Shown: positions 27,554 through 55,459 of the stretch, in pieces
How positions within the stretch are numbered: position 1 is the stretch's first letter
Layout: every line of letters begins with the position of its first letter
DNA from: an uncultured Coriobacteriaceae bacterium
GTDB lineage: Bacteria; Actinomycetota; Coriobacteriia; Coriobacteriales; Atopobiaceae
DNA length: 64,000 bases
Reading direction: 5' to 3'
NCBI GenBank assembly: GCA_902793195.1
Contig: CADBCS010000017.1
Span: 1 to 64,000, forward strand
Made by a program: the position numbers and the translations under genes
The notes under the pieces: generated by a model
Databases searched by the model: none
Told to the model about the DNA's origin: nothing
What the model saw: the letters and a program-made list of their open reading frames with translations, nothing else

Positions 27554-27695
27554 GGGTCCCGTGTGGGTCGTATCTGGGAGCGTGTCTCGCAAGGGCACGT
27601 CCCCGGGTGCGACCGCTCGGATGGGAGAATCGCTCCAATTCGTGCGCAAACCACACGAGTGATATAGTGTTCTCATATCGTACGCTGCTAACCTT

Positions 27696-27706
27696 GGGGG
27701 GGGGGG
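27696..27706 (+). repeat. 11-G homopolymer in the metalloprotease leader
   Basis: Eleven consecutive G residues lie nine bases before ATG at 27716, in the ribosome-binding position and about 28 bases after a TATAGT -10 candidate at 27663-27668. Slipped-strand changes in its length would alter translation start spacing. Confidence 0.8.
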
Positions 27707-27715
27707 TGCCGCTCT

Positions 27716-30070
27716 ATGAGACATACCATTGCCAACCGCATCCTTGCCGTCCTGCTTTCGGTGGCCACGGCCCTTTCCACATGCATGCCCGCCACCGTTG
27801 CCCTGGCAGAGTCGCGCGACGTGCAACTCCAGAACCACTGGCAGGCAGATGGACGAACGACGGTAAGCGGCGTGCTCATCGGTGACGTGCGTGCGCCCAG
27901 GGCAGGCGAGGCGCTCGATGACACGGCTCGAGTCGAGGCCGAGCCAAACGCGGCGTGGGACATTCCCGTGCTGTGGGTCTCCAACGACCTGGCGCTTGCG
28001 ACGAAGGCCGATGAGGGCAAGACCTATCTGCCCGTGCTTGCATTCTATGTGCCGCAGGACTATGCGCTTGCGGACGACACATGCACGGTCGGGCTCTCGG
28101 AATCGCTGGCCGAGCTCTTTGGCGGCAACCAGATCATCTCGGTGTACAACGCCGCAACGGGAATAACCTACATCATGCCCGCCGCTGCGCGAAGCCTCTT
28201 TGCCGCAGCCACGAGCAGCGAGCGGCAGGCAGACGAGAGCGCGGTCGAGACGTCCGACTCAGAGTCCCCTTCGGTGGCGGGAGAAGAGCCCGTGCCCAAC
28301 ACGGAATCGCCGGACAAGGCACGGTCACGCGAGGGCAAGCGCGATGATGCCAAACAGGGCGAGGAAAAGCAGGACGAGGGCAAGCAGGACGAGGCGCCCG
28401 TGCCCCCGCAAAAACCCTCCCTCATTGACATCTATTGCGGCCAGTCGGCAAGGGATGCGCTCACGGACGAGGACCTGGAGTGGCTCATCGACATCATCAT
28501 CAATACGATCGAGCCTCAAGCGGTCAACTATCTTGTCAACAAGTTCCCGGCGTTTGGCGCCGCTGCCCAAAATGGGGAGATCGGAAAGCAGATAGGTCTG
28601 TACATCTATTACAACAAGGGTGACAAGGACGGCGTGCGCGAGCATGAGACGGCACCGCAGGGTGCGCTTGCCTATGTCTCGGGGCATGCGGTCGAGCACG
28701 ATGGCGAGTACAAGTTCAGCTACATGATTGGCGTCAACATAGACGACCTGCTCATAAGGGACCTAAACGGGGATCCCGTGCGCGACGAGGACACGGGAAA
28801 ATTCAACCTCGTTCGCGTTGGCGAGAGCATGCACACCTTCGAGAACACCATGATCCACGAGTTGTTCCACGCGTTCATGGATGACTACAACCGGACGGGT
28901 ATGCTGGGCGTGACCAAGATCGGTGACTACGTGTTCGACAGCAACGGTGAGTTGATCTCCGACGCGCAGCGATACTACAAGCTGCACCTGCCCACGTGGT
29001 TTATCGAGGGAACGGCAAGCGCCGTGGAGAACGTCTTCCAGTTGCGCTTTGAGTGCTTTGATGCGTTGCGGATGGGGCCCGACGGCAAGCCGGGCGAATC
29101 CTTTACCCCTTCGACGCTCGTAGGCTGCTACCTCAATGGTACGTATGACGGAAAACCCGCGTACTTCGACTTGGCCAACTGCAACGCGAGCGTAAAGGAC
29201 AATGGGGTGGGCAACGCTATGTCCGCCTACGTCTGTGGTTACCTGGCCACGGTGTATCTTGCGAACCTTGCCAGCATAAGGGACACGGGCAGCTCCGCCA
29301 TCATCCTCAAGGACGGCAACGTCGACGACGTGTCGACCGATAGGTTGCGCATGGGACTCAACAGCATTCTTGAGCGCATGCACAAGGGCGAGTCCCTCGA
29401 CCAGATAATCGCAGACATTGCCCCCACCGACGCCTCTGGCAAAAAGCTCTACGCAGATACGGCGGACTTCCAGAACAAGTTCATCAAGGGCACGCCCACG
29501 ACGCTTCCCGGCGACATCTTGGAGTGGGAGTTGGAGGGCGACAAGAGCTCGAGCGCCTTCGTTGCGGATTATCTCAACTACCTAACCTACGTGAGCAATT
29601 TGCCAGACCGCAACTACAAGGCAAACGGGTCCATCCTGCTGCCGGTTGATGCGGACACGGGAAGCCCGCTTGACTACACCAAGTCAGCATCGTCCGAGTA
29701 CTATAAGGTCGTTGAGTCAAACAGGGAGGTGCCATCCACCGTTCCCGACTCGGCTGCGTTTGCGAGCGGCGGCAAGTCCGATCCCAATGGTCCGGCAACG
29801 ACATCGTCCGCCGAGCCCGTGGAGCCGCCGGTGCAGGCAGCGAATGCTCCCGCCGGTCCGCCGGTGCAGGCAACCGCAGCGCCCGCCGAGCCGCCTGCGT
29901 TGCAGGAGAGCGAGCCGAAGGCGGACGAGGCGGAGGCCAACGGTACGGCACGTGACGACGGTGCTGGCACAGAAGAGACCCCTGAGCCGACCGAAGAGGC
30001 CATCCCGGCACCAAGCGAGGCCACGGAGGAGCAGCCCTCCAATGGCCAGCCGTCCGATTCGGCCAACTAA
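27716..30070 (+). CDS. Secreted HExxH zinc metalloprotease
   Basis: A 784-residue exported protein. Residues 1-31 are a signal peptide ending near ATVALA-E. About 35-160 form an unrecognised domain, then a Glu/Lys/Gln-rich linker (about 165-235). The catalytic part, about 240-600, has HELFH at His381-His385 with Glu382, and a probable third zinc ligand Glu431 in WFIEGTAS, the gluzincin pattern. The C-terminal about 110 residues are Pro/Ala/Glu-rich and look like a wall-spanning stalk, but no LPXTG or membrane helix follows. ATG at 27716 is preceded by the G tract instead of a normal AGGAGG. The family is not one I can name; substrate unknown. Confidence 0.8.
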   Translation: MRHTIANRILAVLLSVATALSTCMPATVALAESRDVQLQNHWQADGRTTVSGVLIGDVRAPRAGEALDDTARVEAEPNAAWDIPVLWVSNDLALATKADEGKTYLPVLAFYVPQDYALADDTCTVGLSESLAELFGGNQIISVYNAATGITYIMPAAARSLFAAATSSERQADESAVETSDSESPSVAGEEPVPNTESPDKARSREGKRDDAKQGEEKQDEGKQDEAPVPPQKPSLIDIYCGQSARDALTDEDLEWLIDIIINTIEPQAVNYLVNKFPAFGAAAQNGEIGKQIGLYIYYNKGDKDGVREHETAPQGALAYVSGHAVEHDGEYKFSYMIGVNIDDLLIRDLNGDPVRDEDTGKFNLVRVGESMHTFENTMIHELFHAFMDDYNRTGMLGVTKIGDYVFDSNGELISDAQRYYKLHLPTWFIEGTASAVENVFQLRFECFDALRMGPDGKPGESFTPSTLVGCYLNGTYDGKPAYFDLANCNASVKDNGVGNAMSAYVCGYLATVYLANLASIRDTGSSAIILKDGNVDDVSTDRLRMGLNSILERMHKGESLDQIIADIAPTDASGKKLYADTADFQNKFIKGTPTTLPGDILEWELEGDKSSSAFVADYLNYLTYVSNLPDRNYKANGSILLPVDADTGSPLDYTKSASSEYYKVVESNREVPSTVPDSAAFASGGKSDPNGPATTSSAEPVEPPVQAANAPAGPPVQATAAPAEPPALQESEPKADEAEANGTARDDGAGTEETPEPTEEAIPAPSEATEEQPSNGQPSDSAN

Positions 30071-31245: not shown

Positions 31246-31370
31246 CGCAGCCTCGAAAAACCCCGGCCACGACCGACGCCCGTGAGCCAAGCGCCGAGTA
31301 GTTGCAAAAGACGCAGGGCATGCTCATTTGCTACTATTAAAGCCAAGCAATGCTCCGCGGAGGTATTGTC

Positions 31371-34300
31371 ATGAGCCCACGTGTCACGCGTCGCCAATTT
31401 TTCAAGATAGCAACCGATGCCCTATGGGCTCTGCCTGTGGTCACCGGAGGCGTGCTGGCTACGACGCCACGCGAGGCACTGGCCGAGGAGGTGCCCCAAA
31501 GCGAGACCTCGGGCGGCACGGTTAACCCCGGTGCCCCCGGTGCGACGATCATCGTGCTGCAGCCCAACGAAGTGGGCTTCTATGTGGTGGACATGAGCTC
31601 CCAAAAGAAGACGCCCATTCCCGGCGCGCACGTGCGCATCACCTCTCGCTACAACGGAAAGACGGCTGAGGGCGACACCGACGACCTGGGCATGCTCTCG
31701 CTCGACATTGCAGAGCTCACCGAGAACCCCAACAACGAGCCCGTGCCCAAGGAGTACTGCTGCAACGCGTCGCTGGAGATCACCAAGAAGGGGTACCGCA
31801 ACTTCAAGACCGGCATCTTGCGCCTCCACGGTGCCAAGGGGCACTATGTCCCCACTCGTCCGGTCCAGCCCAACATGCCGTATCCGGAGCTCGTGACCTT
31901 CGACGACTGGGACGCGCTCTACACCCAGAATGTCTTCAACATCGGCGCAAAGAACACGCGCACCCACACGCTCCACATTCGCATCGTCAACATTGGCGAT
32001 GACGAAGACGGGCTGCTCATGCTCTACGACAAGACGAGCGGTCGCGTGCTCCATCAGATCGAGGACTTCTCGGACGACGGCGTGCTCGAGGGCGCCTTTA
32101 GGTATGACTTCCTGCTCTTGGGTAGTCGCAACGCGCTGACCAAGGACATGGATCTCGCCATACGCTTTGAGTGCCGCGACCTACTCTTCGAGTTTCCCCT
32201 TGCGATGCAGCTCGAGGAGGCCGTCTTCGACGAGCCCACCCAGGTCAAGGACATCGTTGCCAAGCCGCTCGACACCTTCTACACCGAGGGTGTGGATGTC
32301 CCGTTGTCGAACAACCTTTTGTTGCCAAACGACTTGCCGCTCTGTGGCGGCGTCTTCCAGATGTGGCTCCCGGAGTTTCCCGTCTCCATATTCTGCGACC
32401 CCTCCGGCTACGTGCAGCTCACCATGAAGTCGCCCTCCTTTGGGTACAAGACCGACTTTGGCGAATCGGATGACAATGGGTGGCAGTGCTTCCCACGCAG
32501 TACCGTTGCGGAGCAGTTCAGCGAGATAAAGGCGGGGTGGGAGAAGTCGCTCAACGAGACTGCTGCGGCGGGCGCCAAGGCGTCGGGCGCGCTCTCCCAC
32601 GCGAAGTTCTCCCCCAAGCTTCAGGCAACCGTAAACCTCCAGTTCATGGCCATCGCCAACTGGAACATGGAAGAGCAGTACTTCCAGGGCGACGCCGTCT
32701 TCCAGGTGTTGCTAAGCATGACCATCTCGCTCACCGAGCAGTTCTTTGCCGGCCCTGTGCCCATGTACATAAACTTCACCTTCGTCGGCCAGGCCATGGC
32801 AAACTACGCCGCGGGATTCACCGTGCCACTTCCCGAGGGCGACACGCGTCCCAACCTCGTGCACGTGATCTCGGCCATCGACAAGTATCAGTGGGACTAC
32901 ACCAACACGGGTGTCTCGTTCAAGTTTCTCATAAAGCCGAGCCTATCCGTTGGCGTTGGGGTCAAGGGCGTCGCCTCGGTGTGCCTGTATGGCGAGGTCT
33001 TGCTCACTTACTTCATTGGGGTCACATATCGCGGCAAATTGGACAAGAAGAAGCATCCGCTGCCGCACCGCATCGCGACCTACAGCTTCAAGGCCGAGGT
33101 GGTGATAGAGTTCCTCCTCTTCACGCGAAGGTGGACGCTCTGGCAGAAGAAGAACGACAACTGGTTCAACAACTGGAAGGACGGGGCATCGTCGCAGAGC
33201 GTCGGAGGGATTACCGCGCAAAGCATTTCCTCGGGGTCGCTTGAGGAGTTCCTGGCAGACATGCATGCGGTAGATGACAACATGCTGCGCGCGTCGCAGG
33301 AGTTCGTGACCAATACGAGTGCGGGTAGCCTGTCGACGCAAGGTATGGATGACTCGGATATGCCGCCAATGCCCATGGTCACCAGTGAGTACCGCGAGGA
33401 CGTTATGACGGGGCCGGGCGGCGAGCCCCTACCCTGCGTCGTGTACACGGTGTCCATGGCCGGAGGCCAACCCAGTGACCAATCCGCTCCCAAGGATGCG
33501 CAAGCCGAGCAGCCGAAGGACGTACAAACCGCTCAGCCGCAGGACGTGGTGGTTGAGGAGTCTCAGGACGTGGTGGTCGAGGAGGGAACCGACGCCGCCG
33601 TTGTGGTGACGTCCTCACCCGAGGAGCCACAGGGTAGGGAGAAAACGCCCGAGACGGGCGAAACCCCGGACGTGGTTGTCTCCGAGGAACCTGCGCAGGA
33701 TGAGGAGGTCACTGCGGCAGACATGCAGGATAAGCAAATCGCACAGAGCAAGGAGGTCGCCGCAGCAGGCACGGAGGTCGAGGACGAGCAGACGAAGAGT
33801 GTGCAGGCACCCGTCTCCTACGCGATTCCCTCATACGTGCCCCTGTGGGATCACGTGCCGGGTGGTAAGCTTCGTGCCATGACGGATGGCGACGATGACA
33901 CGCCAAGCGTCGACGATGCACCCGGCGTCGCGGGCCTTGGGAGCAGGGGCGGAGTCCGTCCCAGCCTGGATGTGCGCATGTTCGACGAACCCATCTATGG
34001 CAACCCGCGCGTGCAGGTGGTCGAGATGGAGGGTGAGACCATCGCGCTGCGCATTGGCAGCGTGCTGGTAAACGGCGAGCCGCGCACGCGTCTCATCGCC
34101 ACGGTCATAAAGGGCAAGTTTCGACCTACGGGCACAAGTCAGGTGCTGGACTTTCTCCTGTCGCAGAACATGCAGGGCCAAGGCTTTGCGCGAGAAGAGC
34201 TGTACGACTACGAGTTCTCGGCGGCGGCGTCGAAGTTGGAGACGTGGGATGGCAATGTCGGCGAGATGTTGTACACGCACTGCCTGCAAACCATTGTCGT

Positions 34301-36185
34301 CAGTGGAAAGCGCGGTGACGTTTCGGAAGTCTCCGACGTGGCCTCCAAGTTGGTGTTCTCGTATATTCAGTTCGAACACAACGGCCAAAAGGGCGGCAAC
34401 CCGTTTAAGGCAATCTATTCGTTCGTGAGTTGGCCCGGATCAAAGCTCTATCCTCCCGATAACGAGTTCGAGCATCACTGCATCACGAACGTGCACATTG
34501 AGCACACGTCGGACTACAACCACAACAACACCGAGTACGTCTTCTACCTTGATCGGGCGGGCAATTCGGAAGAAGAGGTCCTTAGTGAGGACGCGCACGT
34601 CCGTCTGGGAGTCATGCTCGTGCCCCACGCGACCGATGCAACTGATGCGACGACGTTTCAATGCATCCATCCCTCGCCCTCACGAATTCGTGAGCTGATA
34701 GGTCCCGACAACATAGACCCCACGGCGTTTGAGTTGGTGTTTTGGCCAACGGTCGAGGGCTACAGGTACTTCATGATACGAGGACTCAACAAAGCTGCGT
34801 ACTTCGCGATTTATCTCGATGCCAATGGTATTTACGACAAGGGAATATGCTGCTTTGGAACGACGGAGGGCAGCGAGGTGTTGCGCTACTGGAAGGCCCA
34901 GAAGTCCGAGGCCATCATATTTAACTTCCGCACACCAAAGTGCCTGTCCTGCAAGGCCGATGGCCAGCTCGCCTCCGTACATGTCCAGAATCCTTTCAGT
35001 ACCAGTAGCGACAACCTGCTGTATGCCAACATCGGACCGTCCAGCTTTGGCGCGGCGTCGTTTGGCATATGGGGCGACTTTGTCTACTGGCCCGTGGTGC
35101 GTAAGGTGGAGGAAGGCGAGGGCGTTGAGGTCGACGAGTATGGCGAGGTGAGCGCGGCGTCCGAGAGTTACGAGTACCGCATCATGTCGTCTCGCCTGTG
35201 GAACAACAAGTTCTCCGACCCGTTTATCTTGGCCGAGCTCGATCACAAGGTTGACAACATCGTGAGCGTGAGCGGCACCAGCGCTGCCCTCACCATGGTC
35301 TCGTCCGAGCTCGAGGACCTCGACACCAACGCGGGCACCATGTGGTACACCTCTATCCCGTTCGTGCGTACCGCCACCATCATCGCGGCCGACTGTGAGA
35401 TGCCCTTTGTGGTGCCGGGCGGCATCGCGGAGTTCTTCGTGACGATTCGCAACGACGGCAACACCTATATAAAGGGCTGCGTGGTAGAGATGTACGACGA
35501 TGCAGACGGGGACAATGTCGACGAGTGGGAGTCGTGTGGCTCCTCGCAGGTGGGCTTCGAGAACGAGCTGGTGGCGTCGATGTACAATCCGCCCGACGCG
35601 AAAGGCAATCCCACCAACGCCGAGGACGACGGCGCGCTGGCTCCTGGCAAGATCGGCGTGTACCGGGTGCTCATGATGGTTCCCATGGAGTGGGAGGGCA
35701 GCCACAGAATTACGTTCGTGGCAACCTATGCCTTCTACGACTTCGTGGAGGACTTCCAGTTCATCTCCAATTCGCAGGACGTCGACCAAGAGGCTCTGAA
35801 GGCGGCGGCCGTCGATACGGAAGCGGCGGAGAATATCGTGTTCTATCACGTGAAGCCGGGAGACATCCCCATGGACGTGCTCACGGTGCGAGCCTCTCGC
35901 ACGGATCCGGTTGCCATGGAGGATGCTCCCGTCTCGGTGGTTGGGAAGGCCGACGGCCAGGGCGGAAACGGCGGCAACCCGAGCGGCAACCCGAGCGGCA
36001 ACCCGAGCGGCAACCCGAGCGGCAACTCGGAAATCTATGGCAGCGGCTCGGCGGATGGCGACGTGCGCTCGGTCCTCCCGAACACGGCCGACAAGGGCGA
36101 TGGCGCGTTGGCGGGCGGTCTTGCCGTGGCAGGTGCGGCCCTGCTCGCCTACGAGCGCCGCAGGGCCAAGAACGAGGGGAAGTAG
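31371..36185 (+). CDS. Giant Tat-exported surface protein with LPNTA anchor
   Basis: A 1604-residue protein. Residues 7-12 read RRQFFK, a twin-arginine motif before a hydrophobic segment ending near EALA-EE. The C-terminus has LPNTA at 1569-1573, a hydrophobic stretch and a basic tail (RRRAKNEGK), a sortase signal with Ala in place of Gly. Between them are an early carboxypeptidase-regulatory-like beta domain (about 50-150), a large unrecognised region, a low-complexity Gln/Glu/Val linker (about 700-815), a second large beta-rich region (about 830-1500) with a CARDB-like part near FVVPGGIAEFFVTIRNDGN, and an Asn-Pro-Ser-Gly stalk. GGAGG precedes ATG 31371. No sortase is in the window. Tat export of a wall-anchored protein is uncommon and implies folding before export. 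Confidence 0.82.
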   Translation: MSPRVTRRQFFKIATDALWALPVVTGGVLATTPREALAEEVPQSETSGGTVNPGAPGATIIVLQPNEVGFYVVDMSSQKKTPIPGAHVRITSRYNGKTAEGDTDDLGMLSLDIAELTENPNNEPVPKEYCCNASLEITKKGYRNFKTGILRLHGAKGHYVPTRPVQPNMPYPELVTFDDWDALYTQNVFNIGAKNTRTHTLHIRIVNIGDDEDGLLMLYDKTSGRVLHQIEDFSDDGVLEGAFRYDFLLLGSRNALTKDMDLAIRFECRDLLFEFPLAMQLEEAVFDEPTQVKDIVAKPLDTFYTEGVDVPLSNNLLLPNDLPLCGGVFQMWLPEFPVSIFCDPSGYVQLTMKSPSFGYKTDFGESDDNGWQCFPRSTVAEQFSEIKAGWEKSLNETAAAGAKASGALSHAKFSPKLQATVNLQFMAIANWNMEEQYFQGDAVFQVLLSMTISLTEQFFAGPVPMYINFTFVGQAMANYAAGFTVPLPEGDTRPNLVHVISAIDKYQWDYTNTGVSFKFLIKPSLSVGVGVKGVASVCLYGEVLLTYFIGVTYRGKLDKKKHPLPHRIATYSFKAEVVIEFLLFTRRWTLWQKKNDNWFNNWKDGASSQSVGGITAQSISSGSLEEFLADMHAVDDNMLRASQEFVTNTSAGSLSTQGMDDSDMPPMPMVTSEYREDVMTGPGGEPLPCVVYTVSMAGGQPSDQSAPKDAQAEQPKDVQTAQPQDVVVEESQDVVVEEGTDAAVVVTSSPEEPQGREKTPETGETPDVVVSEEPAQDEEVTAADMQDKQIAQSKEVAAAGTEVEDEQTKSVQAPVSYAIPSYVPLWDHVPGGKLRAMTDGDDDTPSVDDAPGVAGLGSRGGVRPSLDVRMFDEPIYGNPRVQVVEMEGETIALRIGSVLVNGEPRTRLIATVIKGKFRPTGTSQVLDFLLSQNMQGQGFAREELYDYEFSAAASKLETWDGNVGEMLYTHCLQTIVVSGKRGDVSEVSDVASKLVFSYIQFEHNGQKGGNPFKAIYSFVSWPGSKLYPPDNEFEHHCITNVHIEHTSDYNHNNTEYVFYLDRAGNSEEEVLSEDAHVRLGVMLVPHATDATDATTFQCIHPSPSRIRELIGPDNIDPTAFELVFWPTVEGYRYFMIRGLNKAAYFAIYLDANGIYDKGICCFGTTEGSEVLRYWKAQKSEAIIFNFRTPKCLSCKADGQLASVHVQNPFSTSSDNLLYANIGPSSFGAASFGIWGDFVYWPVVRKVEEGEGVEVDEYGEVSAASESYEYRIMSSRLWNNKFSDPFILAELDHKVDNIVSVSGTSAALTMVSSELEDLDTNAGTMWYTSIPFVRTATIIAADCEMPFVVPGGIAEFFVTIRNDGNTYIKGCVVEMYDDADGDNVDEWESCGSSQVGFENELVASMYNPPDAKGNPTNAEDDGALAPGKIGVYRVLMMVPMEWEGSHRITFVATYAFYDFVEDFQFISNSQDVDQEALKAAAVDTEAAENIVFYHVKPGDIPMDVLTVRASRTDPVAMEDAPVSVVGKADGQGGNGGNPSGNPSGNPSGNPSGNSEIYGSGSADGDVRSVLPNTADKGDGALAGGLAVAGAALLAYERRRAKNEGK
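35973..36020 (+). repeat. Four perfect 12-base coding repeats
   Basis: GGCAACCCGAGC occurs four times head to tail and codes for (Gly-Asn-Pro-Ser)4 just before the sortase signal of the surface protein. Perfect DNA identity, not only protein identity, suggests recent expansion; copy number may vary between strains without breaking the frame. Confidence 0.85.
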
Positions 36186-54136: not shown

Positions 54137-55459
54137 ATGGACATCGTTGCCCTCAACATCTCCTATGCGCTCGAACTCTGCATGGCCATTCCCGCATTTG
54201 TAATGGCGTTGGCGCCCGTAAACAAGTCCCTTTCCATAGGAAAAAAAGAAGCATATGCGATGGCGGCCGCATACCTGGCACTGCTCATTGGAACAGGCGC
54301 AATCGTGTGCCGGCGACTGTATTTGCCCACCATTGTGGTTATGGTGCCAGGATCGCTCCTCCTCTTTCTTCCATATGCACAAACGGTCAACCTATCGTTG
54401 CCAAAGAAGATCTTCTGCTTCGCCAATGCCATGATGCTGTGCTCGTTTTCGACTATGTATGCCACCGTAATAATGGCAGCGTGGGAGTCAAACAATACCG
54501 CTAAGGTGGTTCTGCCGCAAACGGGGCTCTTGGCGCTCGTTATAGCTGCCATCTTGTGCCTGCTGTTCTACAAGACCTTGGTGGAAAAGCTCCCCGTGCT
54601 CCTCTTTCACGACGAGATAGACGACCTATGGCGTTGGCTCGTGCTTATTCCAGTGGCCCTTGCAGCCCTTATGCGGTGGATGATACCTCACGACCCGGCG
54701 CTCATTATGCTTGGGCGCACGGGGGCCATCATGCTGGTTACGACTGCGTTTATCCCCTTCGTGACGTGGCTTCTGTATCACATTGCATGGAACGTCATGT
54801 CGCGCGTGTGGGAAGAGGCCCAGTTGCGCCAGGAGGTCACGATTCTGCGGGCAGAAGAGCGGCGGTTCAACGAACTCAGCACATATATGAGTGAGGGCAG
54901 GGCGCTTCGCCACGATTTTCGCCACCACCTGCTGGCCATGCGCGGCATGTTGGAGGCAAACAAGATAAGCGAGCTCTCGGCGTATCTCGACCAACTCTCT
55001 AACATGGAGGCGGAGGGCCAGAGGCCGCAGCTGTGCCGAAACTTGGCCGTGGATTCGATAGCTGCCTATTACGATGCGATGGCTCAGGAAAAGCGTGTCA
55101 ACATGACCTGGTTCTTGGACTTGCCCGAGGAGCTTCCCGTTGGCGAGGTTGACTTCTGCGCGATTTTGGGCAACTTGGTGGAAAACGCCATCGTTGCCTC
55201 GGCGGAGCTGGAGGAACCCAAGCGCTGGGTCGAGGTTGTATCGCAAGAGGTTACCGACCATGCACTGGGCATAAACGTGCGCAACTCCTTTGCCGGCGAG
55301 GTGCACTTTGGCCGCGATGGGCTACCCAAGACTCGTAGACGCGGCCATGGCATCGGGCTTCCGTCGGTCGTTACCACCATACAGCGCTACAACGGTGGAT
55401 TCGACGTTCGCGCACAGGACGGCGAGTTTTTCTTTGGGGCAATGTTGTATCACGAGTAA
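54137..55459 (+). CDS. Membrane sensor histidine kinase (AgrC-like)
   Basis: A 440-residue kinase. Six or seven hydrophobic helices cover about 1-225, the usual polytopic sensor of peptide-sensing kinases. A short coiled linker leads to the H box with phosphoacceptor His259 (LRHDFRHH) and a GHKL ATPase with GNLVENAIVAS and RRGHGIGLPSV. AGGAGG precedes ATG 54137, one base after the regulator stop. No agrB- or agrD-like gene is adjacent, so the signal is unknown. Some stretches here are less G+C-rich than the core. Confidence 0.88.
   Translation: MDIVALNISYALELCMAIPAFVMALAPVNKSLSIGKKEAYAMAAAYLALLIGTGAIVCRRLYLPTIVVMVPGSLLLFLPYAQTVNLSLPKKIFCFANAMMLCSFSTMYATVIMAAWESNNTAKVVLPQTGLLALVIAAILCLLFYKTLVEKLPVLLFHDEIDDLWRWLVLIPVALAALMRWMIPHDPALIMLGRTGAIMLVTTAFIPFVTWLLYHIAWNVMSRVWEEAQLRQEVTILRAEERRFNELSTYMSEGRALRHDFRHHLLAMRGMLEANKISELSAYLDQLSNMEAEGQRPQLCRNLAVDSIAAYYDAMAQEKRVNMTWFLDLPEELPVGEVDFCAILGNLVENAIVASAELEEPKRWVEVVSQEVTDHALGINVRNSFAGEVHFGRDGLPKTRRRGHGIGLPSVVTTIQRYNGGFDVRAQDGEFFFGAMLYHE

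Follow-up and report, generated by a model that had tools for sequence, protein, structure and literature searches.

The window, that is, the whole 64,000-nucleotide stretch of DNA analyzed here, belongs to a gut- or rumen-type Coriobacteriia bacterium. It contains a putative exported protease gene that is preceded by a long run of G, and the following features of this region are used below.

27660..27669, + strand: probable extended -10 element TGATATAGTG, with a conserved counterpart at the corresponding distance 5' of the nearest homologues
27675..27715, + strand: 5' untranslated leader of about 41 nt, its start (the transcription start) inferred from the position of the -10 element
27696..27706, + strand: tract of eleven G (G11), apparently a slippage-type expansion (+8 G) of the GGG in the Shine-Dalgarno (SD) sequence of homologues
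27702..27708, + strand: GGGGGTG, the predicted 7-base pairing register with the anti-SD CACCUCC (duplex computation with a generic bacterial anti-SD)
27716..30070, + strand: probable exported gluzincin-type metallopeptidase of 784 aa (open reading frame, conserved HExxH and WFxEGxA motifs, structure model)

The protease gene is an open reading frame of 784 codons that starts with the ATG at 27716 and ends at 30070. Its product has a signal peptide, recognized by inspection, the motifs HELFHAF and PTWFIEGTAS, and a tail rich in Pro, Ala and Glu. In an alignment of 22 sequences, the His, Glu and His residues and the WF-EG-A pattern are invariant, and the protein has both the HExxH motif and the downstream Glu ligand motif that characterize gluzincins. 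The original prediction had described the product as an exported metalloprotease of a virulence type. The signal peptide and the motifs conserved in the homologues support the first part of this description; the second is without support: the relatives are uncultured Coriobacteriaceae and include one rumen-style MAG. A structure model of the catalytic region has a pLDDT of 85, and VIA-align gave Z scores of 11.3 over 228 residues to the collagenase VhaC and 10.5 over 241 residues to lugdulysin; Foldseek alone gave no significant match for the model. The NCBIfam flagellinolysin model NF033876 matches the protein below its cut-off only. Judging from motifs and predicted fold, the most fitting description of the protein is that of an exported gluzincin metallopeptidase (M9/M30-like). 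The protein resembles the bacterial collagenases (M9) and lugdulysin (M30) in the predicted fold, the HExxH motif and the downstream Glu motif, but differs from them in that the 784-aa sequence has no Pfam match and no significant sequence match to a solved structure. The family is multi-copy, with members in 14 of the 16 genomes of the genus and in 24 of the 140 genomes of the family. Adjoining the protease gene, at 31350-36185 of the window, is the gene for a 1611-aa exported protein that carries an LPNTA-type sorting signal and matches nothing in Pfam or NCBIfam.

The tract is an uninterrupted run of eleven G at 27696-27706 on the forward strand, followed by the nine nucleotides TGCCGCTCT and then by the ATG at 27716, exactly as had been predicted. 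It is the only run of G or C of length 7 or more in the window. It had also been called the only long homopolymer noticed there; the sole other homopolymer of at least 7 is an A7 at 54241. In the 3.04-Mb genome, in which runs of at least 9 G occur at just three places, it is the longest G run, and when the SD zones of 293 crudely called genes are compared, the protease has the longest G run (11), followed by a run of 8. Base composition alone does not make such a run rare, since 1.4 runs of at least 11 are expected per 464 kb. For G/C runs of at least 7, 7 were observed in 464 kb versus 162 expected, that is, the genome strongly avoids long ones, and extrapolation of the tail of the run-length distribution gives 0.002 runs of at least 11 per window, or about 0.1 per genome. 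Because long G/C runs are under-represented and the extrapolated number is low, the tract is regarded as real and locally unusual; genome-wide it is not astronomically so. Note that the length of 11 is that of the assembly consensus, and that the genome resembles a metagenome assembly (64 contigs, 16S rRNA not found). A search for sibling alleles in viral_contigs using the exact flanks of the tract returned none.

The nearest homologues of the protease are 60-64% identical to it, and comparison with their upstream regions indicates how the tract is placed. The sequence TATAGTG of the probable -10 element is also present upstream of copies 1 and 2 in genome G015 and of the copy in G013; no -35 consensus was found upstream of the protease in a scan with both hexamers. 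The distance from the end of TATAGTG to the ATG is 46 nt in the window, compared with 38 nt in G015 copy 2 and 37 nt in G013. The SD sequences of both these homologues begin with GGG, and the interval consists of 26 nt, G11 and 9 nt in the window and of 26 nt, GGG and 9 nt in G015 copy 2. The distances from promoter to SD and from SD to ATG are thus unchanged relative to the nearest homologues, and the gain is exactly 8 G. Since this is the whole difference between the window and G015 copy 2, the tract amounts to eight additional G within the SD sequence and nothing else. Ordinary SD sequences precede the other homologues, among them the additional copy that this genome carries (L026), and no run of at least 9 G coincides with a protease copy elsewhere in the genus.

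Two familiar ways in which repeat tracts switch genes were considered and rejected for the window protease. The tract is located about 20 nt 3' of the inferred transcription start, within the mRNA leader and outside the promoter spacer, so it could not alter promoter spacing; phase variation in the style of porA or fetA was rejected because the tract is 3' of the conserved -10-like element. Frameshift switching was rejected because, at 11 G, an in-frame TAA (27689) stands just 5' of the tract, so that the tract is not coding, and because the ATG is conserved. That is, the tract does not have the placement of a typical contingency locus, in which a change of length alters the reading frame or the promoter spacing.

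The original prediction had placed the run at the SD position, and the duplex computation supports this placement: GGGGGTG at 27702-27708 is predicted to pair with the anti-SD 7 nt before the ATG, a few nucleotides from the start as an SD sequence should be. The computation uses the generic bacterial anti-SD, as the 16S rRNA of the genome itself was not found; a 16S rRNA was found in G060, where the motif used did not reveal the 3' end. The computed duplex energy is -6.0 kcal/mol at n = 3, where n is the number of G in the tract, -12.0 kcal/mol at n = 5, and -16.6 to -17.4 kcal/mol at n = 9-14; the SD sequences of the tested homologues give -6.5 to -9.8 kcal/mol. From n = 5 upward, the register GGGGGUG no longer moves: it occupies the 3' edge of the tract and leaves 7 nt to the AUG. 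Since the register is pinned at this edge and the pairing is saturated, a gain or loss of one or two G is predicted to change little. In ordinary secondary-structure folding, the leader shifts gradually with tract length. In contrast, a folding model that includes quadruplexes gives an abrupt change at n = 11 (-40 versus -28 kcal/mol), which depends on the model parameters; eleven is the minimum run for a two-layer RNA quadruplex with one-base loops.

Long-G SD sequences are also found at other genes of the same genome. Three of its seven distinct G runs of at least 8 are SD sequences, namely those of the protease, guaA and recF. That of guaA is a G8 three nt before the ATG (G000:C6:52433-52440; L172:12433-12440), and that of recF is a G8 five nt before the ATG (G000:C26:18322-18329; L163); the guaA SD sequences of sister species are ordinary mixed purines. 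As the guaA and recF examples show, the organism also acquires long-G SD sequences at housekeeping genes, and the idea of a tract placed for the switching of a surface gene is weakened accordingly. The protease G11 exceeds both in length.

For the genus as a whole, 47 distinct gap-free G runs of at least 9 were examined. Six of them (L048 in G002, L050 in G004, L055 in G009, L076 and L084 in G006, and L200 in G008) are within the signal-peptide codons of large exported proteins, where they have lengths of G9-10; by chance, 0.06 would be expected under the rough assumption of 300 exported genes with a target of 30 nt each. As assembled, L050, L055 and L200 are in frame, and L048, L076 and L084 are out of frame, such that one G more or fewer opens about 500 residues or more. 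According to Pfam, InlB-type repeats are present in L048 and L076 and ChW repeats in L050 and L076, while the ChW match of L084 is only sub-threshold and is truncated where the locus ends. The six genes are good candidates for contingency genes, and a poly-G phasome in the genus is likely. These tracts would act by frameshift, a mode that the reading frame precludes for the window tract, and contingency-type tracts are clearer in these other, surface-protein genes of the genus than at the window protease. A similar device is seen outside the genus: in L148 (G049, another genus of the family), the codons for the signal peptide of an exported protein contain a G9 that is out of frame as assembled, and one G fewer leaves the frame open for 508 residues or more. 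Genomes G006 and G007 (L078, L080, L082, L087 and L088) also contain G/C runs of 10-19, many of them beside N gaps or contig ends; they are apparently artefacts of assembly, and an automatic survey of phase variation would be misled by them. Across the family, G9 followed by ATG within 4-12 nt was matched 133 times in 73 genomes, versus 60 times in 33 genomes for the reversed control. This excess was discarded as evidence, because many matches are not at real starts and because the frequencies of ATG and GTA differ.

We lean towards the explanation that the tract is a strong SD sequence expanded by slippage, probably mutable in length, and functionally little affected by small changes of length. 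In this scheme, the short GGG of an ordinary GGGAG-type SD sequence would have grown to G11 by replication slippage in the window lineage. The run would act as a strong SD sequence through the best register, GGGGGUG:CACCUCC, anchored to its 3' edge at a distance of 7 nt from the AUG, and mutations that change its length by one or two G would shift expression only modestly. This explanation is favored because the TATAGTG-ATG interval differs from that of G015 copy 2 by exactly 8 G, the computed duplex is saturated at n = 9-14, guaA and recF also have G8 SD sequences, and the other protease copies of the genus have no run of at least 9. Several points argue against it: eleven G exceeds the G8 of the housekeeping genes and is, by analogy, within the range that switches genes elsewhere (uspA1, espR), the quadruplex folding model would place a sharp change at exactly n = 11, and the anti-SD in the duplex computation is a generic one. 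We consider it possible, but less probable, that the tract is a contingency locus, in which slippage would switch or grade the expression of the exported protease in the manner of the Moraxella uspA1 leader. Consistent with this possibility, the tract length is inside the mutable range; uspA1 mRNA in one strain and espR translation change with poly-G length; the quadruplex is predicted only for n of at least 11; and six exported proteins of the genus have G9-10 in their signal-peptide codons, with the frame disrupted in three. On the other hand, SD pairing is saturated and insensitive to a change of one G, the tract is outside the promoter spacer, housekeeping SD sequences of the same genome contain G8, the tract is conserved in no homologue, and the six signal-peptide tracts use frameshift, which the window tract cannot. 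The phase variation that was originally proposed thus retains a plausible basis in mutable length, poly-G of 7-8 or more being known to slip in other bacteria (PMC6321876); as for its effect, pairing hardly changes over n = 9-14, and the housekeeping G8 sequences and the absence of the tract from other copies in the genus also speak against it. The protease tract therefore remains a candidate on/off switch, in which small length changes are predicted to leave the SD sequence working.

A more specific version of switching is a quadruplex threshold, in which a run of 10 G or fewer would be a very strong SD sequence, while at 11 G or more a two-layer quadruplex would hide it. This depends on the folding model described above, and we regard it as improbable; since 5'UTR quadruplexes enhance translation in other constructs (PMC11087576), even the direction of the effect is not predictable, which also weighs against the contingency-locus explanation. 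If it were true, a single slippage event would flip the exported protease, and the tract would belong to a broader poly-G phasome, made up of surface genes of the genus that are mostly switched by frameshift in the signal peptide. It is somewhat less improbable, although still unlikely, that the tract exists but owes its length of 11 to an artefact of assembly, with a true length that may be shorter or mixed. The resemblance to a metagenome assembly and the G10-19 runs that cluster beside N gaps in G006 and G007 would fit such an artefact; however, there is no gap near the window tract, and the promoter and start codon flanking it align to the homologues at the expected distances. Least probable of all, to a degree that we would hardly expect it, is a start upstream of the tract, which would make the tract coding and a frameshift switch in the signal peptide like those of the other tract genes of the genus. 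According to hand translation, a GTG or TTG upstream would share the reading frame of the protease at one tract length in three, namely at 10 or 13 G. However, at 11 G the TAA precedes the tract, the ATG at 27716 aligns with the starts of the homologues, and the upstream GTG and TTG are located at the promoter and have no SD sequence. These comparisons leave the buffered, slippage-expanded SD sequence as the explanation that we prefer.

In the literature searched, we found no report of repeat-driven phase variation in the class Coriobacteriia. Should the tract vary, this class would have a leader switch based on poly-G; should it not, it would serve as a warning that a long run of G at an SD sequence, as also at guaA and recF, can be a by-product of a G-rich SD sequence. 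The by-product of the analysis carries more weight, namely the six surface genes of sister genomes whose signal peptides are encoded with a G9-10 tract. Three of the six are out of frame as assembled, and such a pattern is typical of contingency genes.

Several known poly-G systems can be compared with the window tract. In Campylobacter, poly-G runs of at least 7 are treated as hypermutable, and the window tract exceeds this length threshold of about 7-8 (PMC6321876); the tracts of the Campylobacter phasome are mostly in reading frames and act by frameshift, like the six sister-genome tracts and unlike the window tract. In Treponema pallidum, poly-G tracts (such as that of tprL) are found near or upstream of the starts of putative surface genes; they include promoter tracts and a tp0986 tract whose listed start is at -7 relative to the start codon (PMC7864442), but those studied experimentally affect the promoter from positions 5' of the transcription start. 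The espR 5'UTR of Mycobacterium tuberculosis, in which a change from G7 to G8 alters translation (PMC11898584), is similar in that a poly-G in an untranslated leader of an actinobacterium has a translational effect; however, the espR tract is 144 bp upstream, refolds the leader and regulates a transcription factor, while the window tract is the SD sequence itself. In Moraxella catarrhalis, uspA1 has a poly-G of 8-12 upstream of the reading frame of a surface protein, and in strain 195ME its mRNA level is low with G8-10 but high with G11-12 (PMC7302503). Its length has been shown to vary and to alter the mRNA level, while the window tract forms the SD sequence before a protease gene. The window tract resembles these known poly-G systems in kind, with length variability and an effect on expression as candidate properties.
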